A stretch of DNA of 64,000 bases, taken from Mucilaginibacter rivuli. Lineage in GTDB: Bacteria > Bacteroidota > Bacteroidia > Sphingobacteriales > Sphingobacteriaceae. Where the stretch lies: NCBI RefSeq assembly GCF_019391655.1, contig NZ_JAHXPQ010000002.1:372001-436000 (forward strand), in the 5' to 3' direction. The position numbers were made by a program, and so were the translations under genes. How positions within the stretch are numbered: position 1 is the stretch's first letter; every line of letters begins with the position of its first letter. Of the stretch, positions 50,680-62,049 are shown piece after piece. The notes below the pieces were generated by a model. That model was given only the letters and a program-made list of their open reading frames with translations. It was not told the DNA's origin and made no database searches.

Positions 50680-50753
50680 GCGCCTATAGCTCAGTTGGTT
50701 AGAGTAGAAGACTCATAATCTTTTGGTCCCTGGTTCGAGCCCAGGTGGGCGCA
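50680..50753 (+). tRNA. tRNA with anticodon CAT (elongator Met or Ile2)
   Basis: A 74-nt cloverleaf: acceptor GCGCCTA pairs with TGGGCGC and discriminator A; D arm GCTC/GAGT; anticodon arm GAAGA/TCTTT around CTCATAA (anticodon CAT at 50714-50716); T arm CCTGG/CCAGG around TTCGAGC. A G1-C72 pair rules out initiator tRNA. CCA is not encoded. Met versus lysidine-modified Ile cannot be separated by eye. The mobile element begins just past its 3' end. Confidence 0.95.
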
Positions 50754-50773
50754 CGTAAAATCTGCTGATTTTC

Positions 50774-50829: not shown

Positions 50830-50985
50830 GATTTTAGATAGCTTTATTTATCCTTTATCGTTTCGTTATTTTGAAAGTGGAAGGTTTTTTAATTGTTTAA
50901 CAAAAATTGATGTATCTTTTTAAATTAGAAAATACAGTTTTCTTCAAGAAATCTGAGTGAATCTTTGTATTTTCATGCATCTACT

Positions 50986-52539
50986 ATGACATCGGAACAA
51001 AAAAAATTATTAGGTGCTTATTATACTCCCGAACCAGTAACAGATGCTTTGTGTTCCTGGGCAATAAAAAGGCCAACAGATATTATACTTGAACCAAGTT
51101 TTGGTGGATGTAATTTTTTAACATCCAGTTTGGTGATTTTGACATCTCTTGGCAACGCGAACCCAGAACAAAATATCTACGGCTTCGATATAGATACCTC
51201 TGCTTTTGAGTTACTTAAAACCAAAGGCATTGAAAGTGCTAATTTTATTTACGAAGATTTTCTTTATTCCGACACGCAAGTAAATCAAATTCAAGTGGAT
51301 GTAATAATTGGCAACCCACCATACTTACCAATTCATAAATTAAACACCAAATACAAAGAGAATCTTTATTCGAAATTCAAACGTAGCGCGATAAAAATAC
51401 CTCGTAGGTCAAGTTTATGGGTGTACTTCATAGTGCATTCCTTTCAATACCTAATGCGCGGGGGGAAGATGGCATGGGTTGTACCTGACAGCATTTCGTT
51501 TACAGACTACGGGAAACATCTTTTGAATGAACTTGCGAAAGTTTTCACCAGTGTAGAATTGATACGGACAGATGAAAGGTATTTTTATGATGTTGGTACG
51601 CACGAAAAAACAGCGCTATTACTTTGTGAAAATTATCAAAATGGAACTACAAAGGTAAAGGTGTTCGAATATGACACACTAAATGAAGTGCTGAAGGCAA
51701 TTCGCTCTAAAAAGAAGAAGATAACCGCTCCAAAAGCCGAACAAAAGGCGGTACAACCAAGCGGGTTTTCACTCGTGAAATTAGGGGATATTTTTACTAC
51801 CCGCATTGGTATCGTAATTGGTGCTACAAAGCTGTTGGCTTATAAAAAGAAACAAGCGTTTAATTCAGCTTATTACCCCGAATATTTTTATCCAGTTATA
51901 ACGAAAGGAAAGCAGTTAAGTAATCTTGTAATCAATAGGAAAGCGATATTAAAAAATGAAGAACTTCCAATATATTTATTTGACGCCATTAAACTTGAGG
52001 AAAAAGAGCCGATAAGATTTAAAGAGTTCATCGACACTTTTCCTCAGGAAATCCTGATTAACCAGACATTTAGGAACCGAAAGAAGCTGTTTGGATATGA
52101 TGATTATAATCATCCAGACGCTTTTTTAACCTATTTTTCTCAAGGCCTTCCTAAATTAATAATAAATATAGACAAAGAACTAAACTGTACTAATTCAGTT
52201 CATAGATTATACTTAAAAGATAAGTTTAGGAATCAACCGTGGGTAATGCAACTGGTAAGCGTCCAGTTATTTTGTGAATTTTTGAGAAAAGCAGTTACCG
52301 ATTTAGCGAGGCAGTATGGCAATAAAATAAAAAAGTTTGAACCAAGTGATGCACAAAAGATACCAATATTAATACCTTCATCGGTGGATGCTGTATTCAT
52401 CAACGAGTTACAATCCGTGTTTGAGCAAATAATTACGTTGATAGAAATAAATAAATACCAGGAGGCTAAAGATGTTGGGAACTCTTATTTGACTAAGTTG
52501 ATATTTTTGCCAGTCTTAGATTCTGCGATAGCGAGCTAA
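50986..52539 (+). CDS. N6-adenine DNA methyltransferase, Eco57I/TaqI-like (orphan)
   Basis: 517 residues from the ATG at 50986; an in-frame TTG at 50965 is less likely. Motif X 'LGAYYTPEPVTDALCSWA', motif I 'LEPSFGGCNFL' for S-adenosylmethionine, and the catalytic motif IV 'IGNPPYLPI' (N110-Y113). 'GGKMAWVVPDSISFTDYG' continues the class I methyltransferase fold. From about residue 250 a TaqI-specificity-like target-recognition half follows ('VKLGDIFTTRIGIVIGATKLL'). No nuclease motif (PD-ExK) was seen and no restriction gene is adjacent, so it is an orphan or partner of the minus-strand operon whose stop lies 4 nt away in convergent orientation. Confidence 0.88.
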   Translation: MTSEQKKLLGAYYTPEPVTDALCSWAIKRPTDIILEPSFGGCNFLTSSLVILTSLGNANPEQNIYGFDIDTSAFELLKTKGIESANFIYEDFLYSDTQVNQIQVDVIIGNPPYLPIHKLNTKYKENLYSKFKRSAIKIPRRSSLWVYFIVHSFQYLMRGGKMAWVVPDSISFTDYGKHLLNELAKVFTSVELIRTDERYFYDVGTHEKTALLLCENYQNGTTKVKVFEYDTLNEVLKAIRSKKKKITAPKAEQKAVQPSGFSLVKLGDIFTTRIGIVIGATKLLAYKKKQAFNSAYYPEYFYPVITKGKQLSNLVINRKAILKNEELPIYLFDAIKLEEKEPIRFKEFIDTFPQEILINQTFRNRKKLFGYDDYNHPDAFLTYFSQGLPKLIINIDKELNCTNSVHRLYLKDKFRNQPWVMQLVSVQLFCEFLRKAVTDLARQYGNKIKKFEPSDAQKIPILIPSSVDAVFINELQSVFEQIITLIEINKYQEAKDVGNSYLTKLIFLPVLDSAIAS

Positions 52540-52543
52540 ACGC

Positions 52544-53248
52544 TTAGTTCCCGTAACAATAGTCACGAACTAAGCATTTATTATTATAGTTACCAGAATT
52601 TATGTGACTCCGTATATTTTCAAAATAGTGGTTAGATAGAAACATTTCATTTTTGTAAACTAACGAACGCCACTCTGGATTTTCGATTATTTTTTTCGTT
52701 TTGTCTGTCCTGAGTTCACACAACAACGTATCCAACAAGAGGGCAATATTTACTGGCGAGAAATTCAGTCTTGGGAGTGATAGCCAATGCTCCATTAAAT
52801 TATCAGTTATTTCTAAATTTCCCATCTCCGGCGTTGGCTTACCACCATATTGCAAATGATATATAGGCGAAGGTTGCTTTATATTGGCGCCAGGCGCAGG
52901 CGGCAAAGCATAATCAAAATGAAACTTTCTTATTAATTCCTTTTTTAAATCGTTTTTACCAGTAATTGCTAAAAAGTAACTACATAGAGAATAATTCCCC
53001 GTCACATTTGCACCTAAAAGTACTGTGTGAGGTGCGTCTTGCACTTCCATCTCAAAATCGATGTGAAGAATAAAGTCACCAGTTGTTTTGGTAAGTAATG
53101 CTTTGTTATCGTAATAAGCTTGTTGAATTTTATCAAATAACGAAGGCAACTCTTTAAACATTGTTGCTCTCGTGCTTATATGCTCGAGAGTTTTTACTTC
53201 ATTTTTTTTAAATTCGATAATTGTAGGTTGCTTATCATTAATCTTCAT
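52544..53248 (-). CDS. Unknown protein, third gene of the kinase operon (234 aa)
   Basis: 234 residues; its ATG overlaps the REC gene stop as ATGA. No signal peptide, membrane helix or motif recognised. Segments include 'GDFILHIDFEMEVQDAPHTVLLGANVTG', 'KFHFDYALPPAPGAN' and 'PSPIYHLQYGGKPTPEM'; 'LLLDTLLCELRTDKT' is helical. Cys residues are scattered ('NKCLVRDYCYGN' at the end). Because it is strictly coupled to a histidine kinase and a REC protein, it is probably the output or regulator of that pair. No database family came to mind. Confidence 0.75.
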   Translation of the reverse strand: MKINDKQPTIIEFKKNEVKTLEHISTRATMFKELPSLFDKIQQAYYDNKALLTKTTGDFILHIDFEMEVQDAPHTVLLGANVTGNYSLCSYFLAITGKNDLKKELIRKFHFDYALPPAPGANIKQPSPIYHLQYGGKPTPEMGNLEITDNLMEHWLSLPRLNFSPVNIALLLDTLLCELRTDKTKKIIENPEWRSLVYKNEMFLSNHYFENIRSHINSGNYNNKCLVRDYCYGN

Positions 53249-54225
53249 TCGGCAGGATTCATTAATCTGATATCTTCAAAAAACAATAAACTCTCGTAAT
53301 CGGGATGAAGTGAAGTATATTTTAGCCGCATGGGTTCTTCCTTGGCTCCCTTGGTCTCATCGATAAATGCAACCGTTTCAGGAAAACTTTCGCCTGAAGC
53401 ATAGCACTTGGCAAAATCATTTTCATCCAGCCCTTTAATTCCACGGCCTTTTTCCCAAGGTAAACCGCGAACCTTACTATTCAACGATATGCAATCCAGC
53501 AACTCGCTTTTCCACCATCTTTCTCCTGCTGAGTTTGCGAATACTCCCTTGTATCTTGCCTTTTTAAACTTTTTTTCCAGTCCATTAAAAGCATTTGGCG
53601 TTATCCCTGCCAATGTTGAAGCCCAAAGTTGATTATATACAAAGCCTGGTCTGGCCAAAAGCACCCCTCGAGCCCATCGTGAAATCTCAACTGCTAAACC
53701 TCTGTCGTTTAAGTTTTCTTTCAGGGCGGTAGGTATGATCGATTTTAAATTTTCGCGATCTTGAGAAGGCGGCTGAAACAGATTTATAAGTCCCTCCAAA
53801 TCATGAGGCTTGTTATTTCTTATCAAGGCAAATGATTTAGCGATAGCTAAAATTTCAGTATAATGATTTGAAATATTTTCAATCGGCAGAATTTCTTCGT
53901 ACAACGCTTTCTGTTGACTATCAACGACGCCGGGATCAACCCCCGATATGCAAATTATGGGACATTCAGGCCATTGCTCCCGTATGTATGCAGCAGCCGT
54001 TGATCCTTTTTTAAACACACCTGAACTTGCGTCCTCCAAATTATGGTCAATTATAAGCAAGTTCGGCTCATTCCCATTTAGTATTGATGCTAATACATCA
54101 TTTAAATTTTTGTTTTTTACGTCTTTGAAGTCGATGGATACGTTTAATTGATTAGACATTGTTTTTGAGCCATCCAGCCTTTGCGGGTTGTCGTCAATCC
54201 AAATAAATTTTAGCTTTTTACTCAC
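53245..54225 (-). CDS. Response-regulator-like protein: REC domain with novel C-terminal domain
   Basis: 326 residues if started at GTG 54225, which overlaps the kinase stop as GTGA; a TTG at 54255 would give a 34-nt overlap and is less likely. N-terminal REC features are acidic D11/D12 in 'FIWIDDNP', phosphoacceptor-like D60 in 'NLLIIDHNLED', and Ser94 in 'CPIICISGVDPG'. The usual 'KP' near 105 is not clear. The remaining 200 residues ('LAVEISRWARGVLLARPGFVYNQL', 'GERWWKSELLDCISLNSK') have no HTH or enzymatic signature that I recognise. It probably relays phosphate from the upstream kinase to a non-transcriptional output. Confidence 0.8.
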   Translation of the reverse strand: MSKKLKFIWIDDNPQRLDGSKTMSNQLNVSIDFKDVKNKNLNDVLASILNGNEPNLLIIDHNLEDASSGVFKKGSTAAAYIREQWPECPIICISGVDPGVVDSQQKALYEEILPIENISNHYTEILAIAKSFALIRNNKPHDLEGLINLFQPPSQDRENLKSIIPTALKENLNDRGLAVEISRWARGVLLARPGFVYNQLWASTLAGITPNAFNGLEKKFKKARYKGVFANSAGERWWKSELLDCISLNSKVRGLPWEKGRGIKGLDENDFAKCYASGESFPETVAFIDETKGAKEEPMRLKYTSLHPDYESLLFFEDIRLMNPAE

Positions 54226-56471
54226 GGTAATTTGATTTCTAAATTTGCGCTCCAACCTGTAGGCGGTTTTATAAACCTTACCTTGCCACTATGAGCGTTT
54301 ACGATTTCTTGAACTATACCCAAACCTAATCCACTTCCACTGCCGACTATCATTTTATCTTCGGGATTTAATCTCTTTTCTAAGTTTTTGTATAGCTCCC
54401 CTTCAGGATCAGAAATAAACGGAATAAACACCTCATTAAATTTAGATTCATCTAAACCTAACCCTGTATCGCGAACGCTGATGACGTTAAAGCCATCGCT
54501 ACGCTGGGCAGTTATTTGTATTCTTCTATTTTTACCAGCCGCTATAACCGACTTGATAGAGTTAGATAATACATTCAGCAAAACAGAATATACCTCAGCC
54601 TCTAAAATATTTTTAATTACTATGTTGTTGGCCACTCCACTGTAATCTATATCAATTTCATACTTGTGTGTAATTAGAGTAAATACCTTTTCAACTTTAA
54701 TAATCTTATCTTTCAAAGCCACTTGTCCGGGCTTTGACTGTTTTTGATCAACACTAATTAGTGAAGTCATTTTTAACAAGTCGTCAAGTCGGTCTTTTAA
54801 CTCTGAAAAAGTTGAAGTAATTTTTAGCACCTCATTTCTTTCTTTAATTCCAAGCTTAACCGCTAAATGGGTTAAAGAATTTTTGCTTTGTTCTAAAAGG
54901 CCAAGCAACGATTTTACTTCATGTGAAAATATCAACAGTAACGTTGATGTTGAAGCGACTAAACGCAAATGCAGTAATTCAGCTTTATTGCTGGCATTCT
55001 GTTTTTTTATTACTTCCGTTGCCTTTAAGAAAGAAACTTGCGCGTTTTGGCGTTGATAATCAGGTAGGGTATTAACAATATTTGTAACCTCACGCTCTAA
55101 ATAGCCAATCGCCGCATCAATATATTTTACTGGCTCAATTGTCTCATTTAAAAGGCCTTCAAAATCTCTTGCTGCTTTAAGTGATTCTTCCTGCGCTTGT
55201 TGACGAATAAAAAAATCGCGATAAATAGTCGACCAATCAATAGAATACCTTACAAATTGTTTCAGCTCATCAACAGCTGTGGAGGAAATAAACCCCTCAC
55301 GATTGAGTTTCATCTCAAATCCTTTTGAAGTTTCACCTATATTAACATTTCCCAAATAACTTCGCATAGACAGCATAGTGAGCAATGTACGTGATGGATC
55401 TACACCTTTCAACGTTTGAGCAAATGCTAACAGTTCATTTTTGGGCGAAGCCTTTCGGATACCTCGATCTTTGTCAATTTCTAACCAATCATCATCACCA
55501 TAAGGGAACACGCGGAAATTTTTATATTTAACTTGAACTCCGCCCCATTCCGGCAATATTTTTTCCATGTTACTTAGGGAGTTCAAAGATGTATCACGCA
55601 TTTGGGCGCGTTCACCAACCATTATCCCAACCCTAAGGGATATATCATTTAGATGGGGGAAAGTCTGTGTAGACGTTATCGTCTTCTTTCCTATTCCTAA
55701 GGCATCGAGTTCACATACGGCTTGGTGCTTTTCATTTATTTTTGCGGTTAATGTTCCCCACCCTGAGTTTATGAAATCTTCTCGAATATCTCGGACCCCT
55801 CCTTCGAAATCTGGAGCGACAATTTTAACAGTGAAACCAGGGTCATCCTGAAACCCTTTTCGTTGCGTGCCGCTATTTGCAGATAAAACGGCTAATTGCC
55901 TTTTCAGCCAATTCCACCCCCGTAAATTCCATTCCTCGGTTATATCTGTAATCACTAAAGTTGTTCCAGTAACGTAATTCGTACCTGTTATTTGTTCACC
56001 GGGGCAATCGATATCGGTAACTTCAGTTCCAGGTTTAAAATCAGTCCAGGGAAACAAGACTTCCGTCTTTTCTACATTTGGTTGCAAACCGACCAAATTA
56101 CCTTCCGATGTACTTATAGAGATGAGCCGAAGTTTGCCGCCTAACCTTCTACATGAAAACCTTCCAATACCTTTCGCCCCTGTTAACGGACGTCCAAAAA
56201 CCGCTGAAACGTCATTTGCGGCCTTATTTGTAGTAGCAATTCGCATCCAATAACTCTGTATTGCGTTAAAATTCATGCCCTTTCCATTGTCAATAACATG
56301 AATTTCTGATTTGCCATCACTGTCGCTTTTAAAAACAATTTCAACTTCAGTTGCATCAGCATCATAACAGTTTTTCACTAACTCAACTAAAGCGATATGA
56401 ACCGTTTCAACCAGTTTTTCGCCCAGCTCTCTTAGTAAGGCACTGTCAACTTTAAATCTCAATATACTCAT
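54222..56471 (-). CDS. Histidine kinase with two GHKL ATPase domains
   Basis: 749 residues, cytoplasmic (no membrane helix seen). The N-terminus is a full GHKL ATPase of Hsp90/MutL/MORC style: 'ELVKNCYDADATEVEI' (N34), 'HVIDNGKGM' (D61-G63-G65) and 'GAKGIGRFSCRRLGG' (98-112). After about 250 residues of a middle domain and coiled region, an H-box 'LIFSHEVKSLL' gives a phosphoacceptor H517. The C-terminus is a second HATPase_c domain: 'VLLNVLSNSIKSVI', 'VRDTGLGLDES', 'GSGSGLGLGIVQEIV' near 710. It is the first gene of a three-gene operon coupled by GTGA and ATGA overlaps. Signalling role is supported by the adjacent REC; sensed signal unknown. Confidence 0.88.
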   Translation of the reverse strand: MSILRFKVDSALLRELGEKLVETVHIALVELVKNCYDADATEVEIVFKSDSDGKSEIHVIDNGKGMNFNAIQSYWMRIATTNKAANDVSAVFGRPLTGAKGIGRFSCRRLGGKLRLISISTSEGNLVGLQPNVEKTEVLFPWTDFKPGTEVTDIDCPGEQITGTNYVTGTTLVITDITEEWNLRGWNWLKRQLAVLSANSGTQRKGFQDDPGFTVKIVAPDFEGGVRDIREDFINSGWGTLTAKINEKHQAVCELDALGIGKKTITSTQTFPHLNDISLRVGIMVGERAQMRDTSLNSLSNMEKILPEWGGVQVKYKNFRVFPYGDDDWLEIDKDRGIRKASPKNELLAFAQTLKGVDPSRTLLTMLSMRSYLGNVNIGETSKGFEMKLNREGFISSTAVDELKQFVRYSIDWSTIYRDFFIRQQAQEESLKAARDFEGLLNETIEPVKYIDAAIGYLEREVTNIVNTLPDYQRQNAQVSFLKATEVIKKQNASNKAELLHLRLVASTSTLLLIFSHEVKSLLGLLEQSKNSLTHLAVKLGIKERNEVLKITSTFSELKDRLDDLLKMTSLISVDQKQSKPGQVALKDKIIKVEKVFTLITHKYEIDIDYSGVANNIVIKNILEAEVYSVLLNVLSNSIKSVIAAGKNRRIQITAQRSDGFNVISVRDTGLGLDESKFNEVFIPFISDPEGELYKNLEKRLNPEDKMIVGSGSGLGLGIVQEIVNAHSGKVRFIKPPTGWSANLEIKLP

Positions 56472-60549: not shown

Positions 60550-62049
60550 ATGAAAAAGTTTGATTTAGATACCCCCCTTATCCAGTTTGAAGATAGCACA
60601 GGCAAACATGCCTGGGCCATCCGCAATGCAGTTGAGGGAGTACAAATATTCGGTGGTATAGGTTCAGGCAAAACTTCCGGCTCTGGTAGAACTTTGGCAA
60701 TCAAATATTTAACTGCGGGTTTTGGTGGTTTGGTTTTAACCGTAAAACCGGATGAAAAGGATATGTGGAAGTATTATTGCGAGGTTACAGGGCGCTCTTC
60801 CGATTTGGTTATAATTGAACCAGGTGGTGAATATGGGTTTGATTTTTTACAATATTTATCAAGCCAAAAGAATTCCGAAACACCGATAACAGCTAACATC
60901 TTAGAAACGCTGAAAACTGTTATTCGGGCATCCGAGGAAAAAAGTAGTGGCAGATCGGACGACCCATTTTGGGAAAAGTCGTTGGACATGCTGTTATTCC
61001 ATGTTATCGACCTATGCTCAATCGCTTACGGTAATACAAGCGTACAAACCATGTACGATATAGTGCAAACCTTGCCTAAACTTACCACCGCGCCAAAAGA
61101 AGATAACAAAGCTACCGCATTTGAAAGTGCCTTTAAAAAGGCTAAGGCGATTGTCGAAGTTGAAATTGAAAAATGGTATAAAACCCTTTCACAGTTTCAA
61201 AAGGATGCATTAGGCGAAGAGGAAGAGTTTGAAGAGGCCGTTATGGATGCAATTCCGCAAGCGAGGCTACTTAAGTTTTTAGATACTTTCTTTTTTGAAA
61301 CCTTTAAAAACCTGAGCGATAAAACCCGCTCGATAATTGAGTTCAGTTTTAATGGTTTTTTGTTTCAACTTTTAAGAGAGCCTATCTATTCTATGTTTTG
61401 TAAAACCAAAAAGAATGTGAGGCCGGAAGATAGCTTAGAAGGTAAAATCATCCTTATTAACCTGCCTGTAAAACTTTACAATAAGGTAGGCAAAGATTGC
61501 CAAACACTCTTCAAATACATCTGGCAGGTCGAGATGGAGAAGCGCAATGCACTAACCAATGATCGCCCTGTGTTTCTATGGGCAGATGAAGCGCAAAACT
61601 TCTTCACGGAACATGACCCTATATTTCAAGCAACTGCGAGAAGTAGCCTTGTGGCAACAGTTTACATTACACAAAACCTACCTAACTACCATATGGCGAT
61701 GGGTGGCTCAAAAACGGACGACCGGGTAAAGGGCTTCTTAGGTACGCTCGGCACCAAGATATTTCACGCCAATGGCGATATAGAAACAAATAAATACGCT
61801 TCGGAATTAATAGGGGATGCTTTTTTTTATGACCCTTCCCGCTCTGTAACAACCGCCGAAAAGTTCTCTCGTAGCGACAGCGTAGGCCTTAAATTGGATA
61901 GGAGAATTAGGCCGGAAGAGTTCATATGCTTAAAAACGGGTGGCGAAAGAAACAACTACCGAGTTGAAGCCTATATCCAGGTTCAAGGCGATCAGTTATT
62001 TGAGGGCGGAAACTTTAAAAAGGTAAAGTTTAATCAAAAGTATAATTAA
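60550..62049 (+). CDS. TraG/VirD4-type coupling ATPase, without obvious membrane anchor
   Basis: 499 residues. Walker A is 'GGIGSGKTSGSGRT' (about 35-48), Walker B is 'PVFLWADEAQNFF', and 'ATVYITQNLPNYHMAMGG' resembles the motif III/sensor of TraD/TraG DNA translocases. T4CPs link a relaxase-DNA complex to the secretion channel. No N-terminal transmembrane helix is present; the next gene encodes a four-helix membrane protein that may supply it. Gene order, ATPase then membrane protein then relaxase, is compact. The 'TraD_N'-type domain assignment rests on these motifs only. Confidence 0.82.
   Translation: MKKFDLDTPLIQFEDSTGKHAWAIRNAVEGVQIFGGIGSGKTSGSGRTLAIKYLTAGFGGLVLTVKPDEKDMWKYYCEVTGRSSDLVIIEPGGEYGFDFLQYLSSQKNSETPITANILETLKTVIRASEEKSSGRSDDPFWEKSLDMLLFHVIDLCSIAYGNTSVQTMYDIVQTLPKLTTAPKEDNKATAFESAFKKAKAIVEVEIEKWYKTLSQFQKDALGEEEEFEEAVMDAIPQARLLKFLDTFFFETFKNLSDKTRSIIEFSFNGFLFQLLREPIYSMFCKTKKNVRPEDSLEGKIILINLPVKLYNKVGKDCQTLFKYIWQVEMEKRNALTNDRPVFLWADEAQNFFTEHDPIFQATARSSLVATVYITQNLPNYHMAMGGSKTDDRVKGFLGTLGTKIFHANGDIETNKYASELIGDAFFYDPSRSVTTAEKFSRSDSVGLKLDRRIRPEEFICLKTGGERNNYRVEAYIQVQGDQLFEGGNFKKVKFNQKYN

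Follow-up and report, generated by a model that had tools for sequence, protein, structure and literature searches.

A histidine kinase, receiver and putative effector encoded beside DNA modification genes in Mucilaginibacter rivuli and distant prokaryotes: a candidate phosphorelay for DNA restriction

We analysed a 64,000-nucleotide stretch of the Mucilaginibacter rivuli genome (assembly GCF_019391655.1, contig NZ_JAHXPQ010000002.1, positions 372,001 to 436,000; hereafter the window) around three adjacent genes that encode a soluble histidine kinase (HK), a protein with a receiver domain (REC) and a 234-residue protein that we call U, next to a gene for an adenine DNA methyltransferase. In distant bacteria and an archaeon, the trio is again found next to genes for DNA marking, which points to a likely relay that would unleash an attack on unmarked foreign DNA. 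We put at about 0.58 the probability that HK, REC, U and the methyltransferase recur as a defence system linked to DNA modification, with a His-to-Asp phosphorelay that would likely replace a directly acting restriction enzyme.

The three genes share the minus strand and overlap one another: the GTG start codon of the REC gene overlaps the HK stop codon (GTGA), and REC and U are joined by an ATGA overlap. The first-pass annotation of this sequence had described the same arrangement, and our coordinates agree with it (Table 1). HK carries an N-terminal HATPase_c_3 domain (residues 24-130), which is a GHKL ATPase of the paraMORC type, an H-box with H517 and a C-terminal HATPase_c domain (residues 626-739), so that the kinase with two ATPase domains proposed at first is indeed found. 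We aligned 25 such kinases, among them sequences from Bacteroidota, Ectothiorhodospiraceae, Paraburkholderia, Pyrinomonadaceae, Pseudanabaena, Deinococcus and haloarchaea. In this alignment, the first ATPase has invariant E30, N34, D37, D61 and G-box residues; H517, E518 and, in the second ATPase, N633, N637, D668 and three glycines are invariant as well. In the wider set of 125 kinases described below, the column of H517 is histidine in 124/124 rows with a letter and that of N34 is asparagine in 123/123. D668 is conserved in 118/123 kinases overall versus 29/29 of those with a window-type receiver (REC2), indicating that the second ATP site is less strict outside the window type. Among these 29 kinases, H517, N633, N637 and the checked G-box glycines are likewise invariant, and N34 and D61 are present in all 28 rows with a letter. 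The locus combines features of two-component systems (an H-box with its phospho-acceptor histidine, the N and G boxes, and a receiver aspartate in REC) with those of paraMORC proteins (a GHKL domain whose ATP-binding motifs are intact, encoded among modification genes).

The structural model of REC (predicted local distance difference test score, pLDDT, 93.6) matches solved receivers over residues 3-141, bearing out the receiver with D11, D12 and D60 that had been read from the sequence. The Pfam receiver match of the window protein is below threshold, and PF00072 is matched by 53 of 58 aligned REC sequences. D11 and D60 occur in 58/58 of these, D12 in 57/58, and position 94 is threonine or serine in all. 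No fold match was found for the C-terminal part (about residues 142-326), a part that was barely tested; four of its residues, W184, G194, W237 and W238, are invariant (58/58).

The model of U (pLDDT 92.8) comprises four consecutive long strands and a fifth, short one, with helices on both sides. The fourth strand bears H110 and D112, and the fifth bears H131. Together with P128 and R160, these residues are kept in 29/29 divergent homologues, and we infer from this conservation that they form a metal or catalytic site. On a plasmid of the archaeon Halomicrobium (L047), a 269-aa U-family open reading frame (ORF) follows REC between 12358 and 13311, where the PLSDB gene table lists none.

To survey relatives, matches to a profile of the N-terminal half of HK were counted at E 1e-12 or better in 395 sampled Bacteroidota genomes. 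Relatives are present in 67 of them (own genome included), not all being full kinases; a collection that is viral by selection contributed 91 contigs with relatives, of which 80 were kept. The 39 genome neighbourhoods taken (matches at E 4e-41 or better, minus the own place and G765) were pooled with earlier loci and the window, which gave 134 paraMORC ORFs. Dropping four of less than about 500 aa left 130, and removal of five at 95% identity (L110, L114, L118, L139 and L191) left 125. Methyltransferase and effector labels are those of BLAST clusters, single representatives of which were confirmed by Pfam; L117 and L118 (U) and L051 (REC7), on the basis of hhalign, and L049 (metallo-beta-lactamase (MBL) fold, by annotation) were labelled by hand.

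A next ORF on the same strand was found for 121/125 paraMORC ORFs, with a gap of at most 30 nt in 121/121 and an overlap in 81, figures that use longest-ORF starts and are biased towards overlap. The next-ORF sequences group into nine clusters (117/126 before dereplication), and effectors were assigned for three of these, REC2, REC7 and REC16. REC2 is followed by U in 29/29 dereplicated loci, REC7 by an HNH protein in 15/15 (one member confirmed by Pfam) and REC16 by an MBL-fold protein in 7/7 (one member confirmed; L049 is split by a transposase gene). No cross-pairing of receiver and effector types occurs in these 51 loci. The homologues are therefore not the single, unlinked genes that the first-pass annotation had reckoned with as a contrary outcome; the order HK-REC-U is kept throughout the 29 loci, and U stands in the effector slot, as had been supposed.

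The set is widely distributed. All seven loci from a REC-profile scan of genome contigs read HK-REC-U-methyltransferase on a single strand; they belong to Bacteroidota, one Ectothiorhodospiraceae and one Pyrinomonadaceae metagenome-assembled genome, and one of them (L003) has a shortened kinase ORF. The same order is found on a Hymenobacter plasmid (L050), and a Paraburkholderia plasmid reads methyltransferase-HK-REC-U, with U recognised by a weak profile match (E 8.5e-4). The Halomicrobium plasmid carries HK-REC-U with an N6-methyltransferase two ORFs away on the opposite strand. Methyltransferase-HK-REC-HNH is the order on a Deinococcus gobiensis plasmid, and on a Pseudanabaena plasmid (L049) HK-REC is followed by an MBL-fold gene in two pieces around an IS982 transposase gene, with no methyltransferase seen. 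The Hymenobacter four-gene set lies close to a prokaryotic Argonaute (pAgo) and an MmeI-type type IIG enzyme. Five U-type loci on viral contigs (L083, L085, L097, L099 and L100) lie near integrase-like genes (labelled by eye) and a common 347-aa gene, as if they lay in one prophage integration region.

The methyltransferase of the window matches Pfam N6_Mtase/Eco57I, and among its PADLOC matches listed (25/38) are mainly type II methyltransferases and some PglX. The first-pass annotation had noted its convergent end 4 nt from U, which our coordinates reproduce; this neighbour is not incidental, as a related N6-methyltransferase lies near 26/29 REC2/U loci. The nearest such gene is upstream on the same strand in 10/29, third on the same strand in 9/29 (the order HK-REC-U-methyltransferase), third on the opposite strand in 5/29 (window included) and in other positions in 2/29. 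None was found in 3/29, namely L087 and L092, which are at contig ends, and L164. More generally, a methyltransferase-cluster ORF of at least 250 aa is present within -2 to +4 ORFs of 108/125 kinases (C5-type 50, Eco57I-type N6 48, N6/N4-type 10). We take cluster 0 to be C5-type from known sequence motifs, the tested motif being missing in 8/50 of the counted ORFs, and its 21 short members presumably resemble Vsr.

The type of modification gene is not fixed to the kinase lineage. A FastTree phylogeny places the window kinase in a nine-locus clade together with L004 and further loci of the HK-REC-U-methyltransferase order. Its methyltransferase matches those of nine U loci outside this clade with E values of 2e-68 to 8e-64 and those of L001-L007 and L162 inside it with 7e-37 to 3e-23, indicating that the modification gene has been exchanged on one of the two sides, as would fit an exchange of such genes within the system. 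Among the nine loci with nearer methyltransferases, L082, L083, L085 and L086 share the opposite-strand layout of the window; L082 is the nearest outgroup of the clade, and the other eight are more distant.

Seventeen kinases have no methyltransferase-cluster ORF of at least 250 aa in the -2 to +4 interval, and three of these lie with phosphorothioation genes. At L164, a REC2/U locus (G716:C45:198000-217000, on a 238-kb contig), SspB, SspC and SspD are encoded upstream on the HK strand, and 8 nt separate the SspD stop codon from the first in-frame ATG of HK. L164 is a stacked island, in which a YhcG-like nuclease, SspB-C-D and HK-REC-U on one strand are followed by PbeA and a PbeC/LmuB-like ATPase in convergent orientation. 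At L198 and L199, which have no methyltransferase and belong to a different kinase clade, the genes that precede the kinase in the same direction include homologues of SspC, SspD and PbeA, and an ATPase-like gene also precedes it. The L198 and L199 kinases have a partner of 632-637 aa, and the L199 kinase is just under the HEF_HK cut-off. Nine further methyltransferase-less kinases are at a contig edge on at least one side (L087, L088, L092, L096, L120, L124, L150, L155 and L156); L049 is interrupted by the transposase gene, L159 and L173 have C5-cluster ORFs further away, and L182 has a short methyltransferase-cluster ORF at an edge. Only L115 shows none of these circumstances.

Taken together, the observed gene set, its catalytic residues, the pairing of receiver and effector and the exchange of modification genes lead us to infer a relay between the sensing of unmodified DNA and effector attack, and we propose five steps for it. 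The methyltransferase would mark host DNA. The MORC/MutL-type ATPase of HK would engage DNA or a DNA-bound complex and sense a missing mark or a phage-made state, upon which the C-terminal kinase would autophosphorylate H517 and pass the phosphate to D60 of REC. Phospho-REC, via its own C-terminal domain, would then bind and activate U. Finally U, probably a metal-dependent enzyme (H110/D112/H131/R160), would cut nucleic acid or otherwise halt the phage or the cell.

Several observations weigh against this proposal. U matches no Pfam or other recognised family and its model gives no usable PDB or viral fold match, so the label "nuclease" rests on the proteins that fill the same slot elsewhere; moreover, 4/29 U proteins (three of group U30, plus L117) are linked to the window protein by profile alone (hhalign 91%). 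In REC, the lysine that receivers usually carry where beta-5 ends was not located at positions 111-118, where lysine reaches at most 15/58 among the commonest residues shown. REC and effector types track the kinase clades in the FastTree tree, and the consistent pairings thus represent few independent events. Ordinary kinases often adjoin response regulators, and the HK-REC neighbourhood by itself therefore tells little. The L003 kinase ORF (626 aa) is missing the N34 region, and some members are thus not intact. Finally, L115 (REC4) has no modification gene in 17 kb, and at L164 the PbeA and PbeC/LmuB-like proteins could serve the phosphorothioate mark, so that U need not be the restriction arm there.

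The alternative that survives best, which we nevertheless regard as improbable, is an abortive-infection relay in which HK would respond to a phage event that has nothing to do with methylation, while U would be a host-arresting toxin, the methyltransferase being an independent or protective passenger. The conserved polar residues of U in its effector slot and the 91 viral-contig relatives of the HK N-terminal half (with the selection noted above) would fit such a role. Against this reading, methyltransferase-cluster ORFs lie near 108/125 kinases, and the window enzyme is of the type carried by other U loci. Slightly less probable still is a transcriptional two-component system, in which phospho-REC would control the methyltransferase, other restriction-modification genes or the element, with U as an accessory. 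HK and REC do have the usual two-component layout, and the authors of PMC8011034 speculate, in a similar sense, on direct or indirect control of restriction-modification systems by the HEF_HK pair. However, REC yielded no DNA-binding output domain, in a search where solved-structure matches cover the receiver part only and the C-terminal part was barely tested, and the partners of the REC types are HNH, MBL-fold or U proteins. Least probable of the three is that U is a reader or adaptor, e.g. of modified DNA, and that the REC C-terminal domain or a host nuclease attacks: the invariant tryptophans and glycine of the REC C-terminal half, which lacks a fold match, and the weak match that 4/58 REC sequences give to a family of toxins with a restriction-endonuclease fold (best E 0.014) speak for it, but HNH or MBL-fold proteins occupy the U slot in sister groups, where REC is short (209-248 aa).

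Detocs, like the system proposed here, uses a phosphorelay in phage defence; it is not known to have a MORC-type ATPase or a methyltransferase, and its effector acts on nucleotides. REC and U have no match in PADLOC, the presence of Detocs models in that library being unchecked, and the sole PADLOC matches of HK are to the ATPase part of two models for type II restriction enzymes and, weakly, to TmtA. The initial view that the visible domains match neither Detocs nor BREX is compatible with these results. For BREX, PglZ and BrxC are absent among the PADLOC matches listed for ten window proteins around the locus (25/38 for the methyltransferase). HK residues 5-194 match the N-terminal part of the BbrUII/HgiDII restriction enzymes (NF050001, E 2.8e-21), but at 75.7 bits the match stays below the cut-off of 550 and is not full-length, and kinase sequence makes up the remainder of HK.

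Among published systems, the HEF_HK/Response_reg_2 pair (Bellieny-Rabelo et al., 2021; PMC8011034) comes nearest. It consists of a kinase and a receiver beside restriction-modification genes, with no function shown in the part of the paper available to us. That part connects the pair to paraMORC ATPases and lists the HNH_2, MvaI_BcnI and EcoRII-C nuclease families, and Vsr, in HEF_HK neighbourhoods. In both systems, a soluble kinase that has HATPase_c_3 at its N-terminus, HATPase_c at its C-terminus and a DHp-like region is found with a receiver neighbour and in restriction-modification company; the modification partner there is mostly a C5-methyltransferase, whereas here we find an N6-methyltransferase and U. 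HEF_HK (PF19191) does not match the window kinase at a threshold of E 0.05 and has 0 matches in its genome (G000), the same model being above cut-off in G608 and G781; it was also not found in ten more kinases, eight from other clades and two from the U clade. Response_reg_2 (PF19192) is neither among the matches of the window REC nor among the families listed (25/29) for the 58 REC sequences, in a search that had no PF19192 positive control.

ParaMORC families had earlier been reported from restriction-modification operons that encode HNH and restriction-endonuclease-fold nucleases (Iyer et al., 2008; PMC2292703). These proteins resemble HK in their N-terminal GHKL ATPase with intact motifs and in their operonic association with DNA methylases and nucleases, HNH included, but the passages considered describe restriction-endonuclease-fold nuclease and TIR extensions; the word "receiver" is absent from the text of that paper, and "histidine kinase" is used solely to name the GHKL fold. 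The SspABCD, Dnd and Pbe systems (PMC10853773, PMC9646914) likewise combine, in the portions available, a modification module with a separable defence module, and three HK relatives lie in such loci; in the main text of PMC10853773, the words GHKL, Hsp90, receiver, MORC, two-component and phosphorelay are absent. Neither the available part of PMC8011034 nor the other open-licence PMC literature searched contains the U family, the pairing of receiver and effector or the link to phosphorothioation. What is new relative to published relatives is the putative effector family U and the modification partner, the kinase/receiver pair beside restriction-modification genes being already known.

In M. 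rivuli, the operon is predicted from a repeat to sit on a mobile element bounded by tRNA-Met: the 47-bp end of the tRNA gene recurs at 97.9% identity 29.4 kb downstream, outside the window, and a tyrosine integrase adjoins this far copy. The operon and the methyltransferase are located at the tRNA end of the element, whose cargo includes a TraG/VirD4-like coupling protein, a protein with AAA_30 and TraI-helicase-associated domains and a Toprim-domain protein. An ArdC-type antirestriction protein (L201:3819-4724) is encoded on the same element as the putative restriction locus. Between 57216 and 59645 of the window, element ORFs of 172 and 357 aa match no Pfam family, whereas another (227 aa) gives a weak match only.

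Table 1. Features of the HK-REC-U locus and its surroundings (window coordinates)
Feature	Position	Strand	Remarks
HK, soluble kinase, 749 aa	54222..56471	-	N-terminal paraMORC-type GHKL ATPase, H-box, C-terminal HATPase_c
REC, 326 aa	53245..54225	-	Receiver domain 3-141 and C-terminal part about 142-326
U, 234 aa, predicted effector	52544..53248	-	Conserved H110-x-D112 ... P128-x-x-H131 ... R160
Eco57I/N6_Mtase-type adenine DNA methyltransferase	50965..52539	+	NPPY motif; ends 4 nt from U in convergent orientation
tRNA-Met	50680..50754	+	Last 47 bp (50708-50754) repeated further on; predicted attachment site of element
TraG/VirD4-like coupling protein	60550..62049	+	Same element as HK-REC-U

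Restriction is usually pictured as an enzyme checking its own site and then cutting. A wider reading, which we offer tentatively and hold to be somewhat short of an even chance, is that the loci belong to a large, overlooked class of restriction systems built on two-component signalling, in which a soluble MORC-type kinase would sense whether the local mark, of any chemistry (N6-methyladenine, C5-methylcytosine or backbone phosphorothioate), is present on the DNA, and an interchangeable effector (an HNH nuclease, an MBL-fold hydrolase or the putative new HxD...PxxH...R enzyme U) would be freed by a His-to-Asp relay. If this is true, a phosphorelay between sensing and cutting would allow thresholds, amplification, reversal by phosphatase activity and the coupling of one type of sensor to several effectors. 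The HEF_HK pair of 2021, and soluble MORC-type kinases generally, would likewise gain a concrete and testable job, and U would be added as an effector family with a defined candidate active site.

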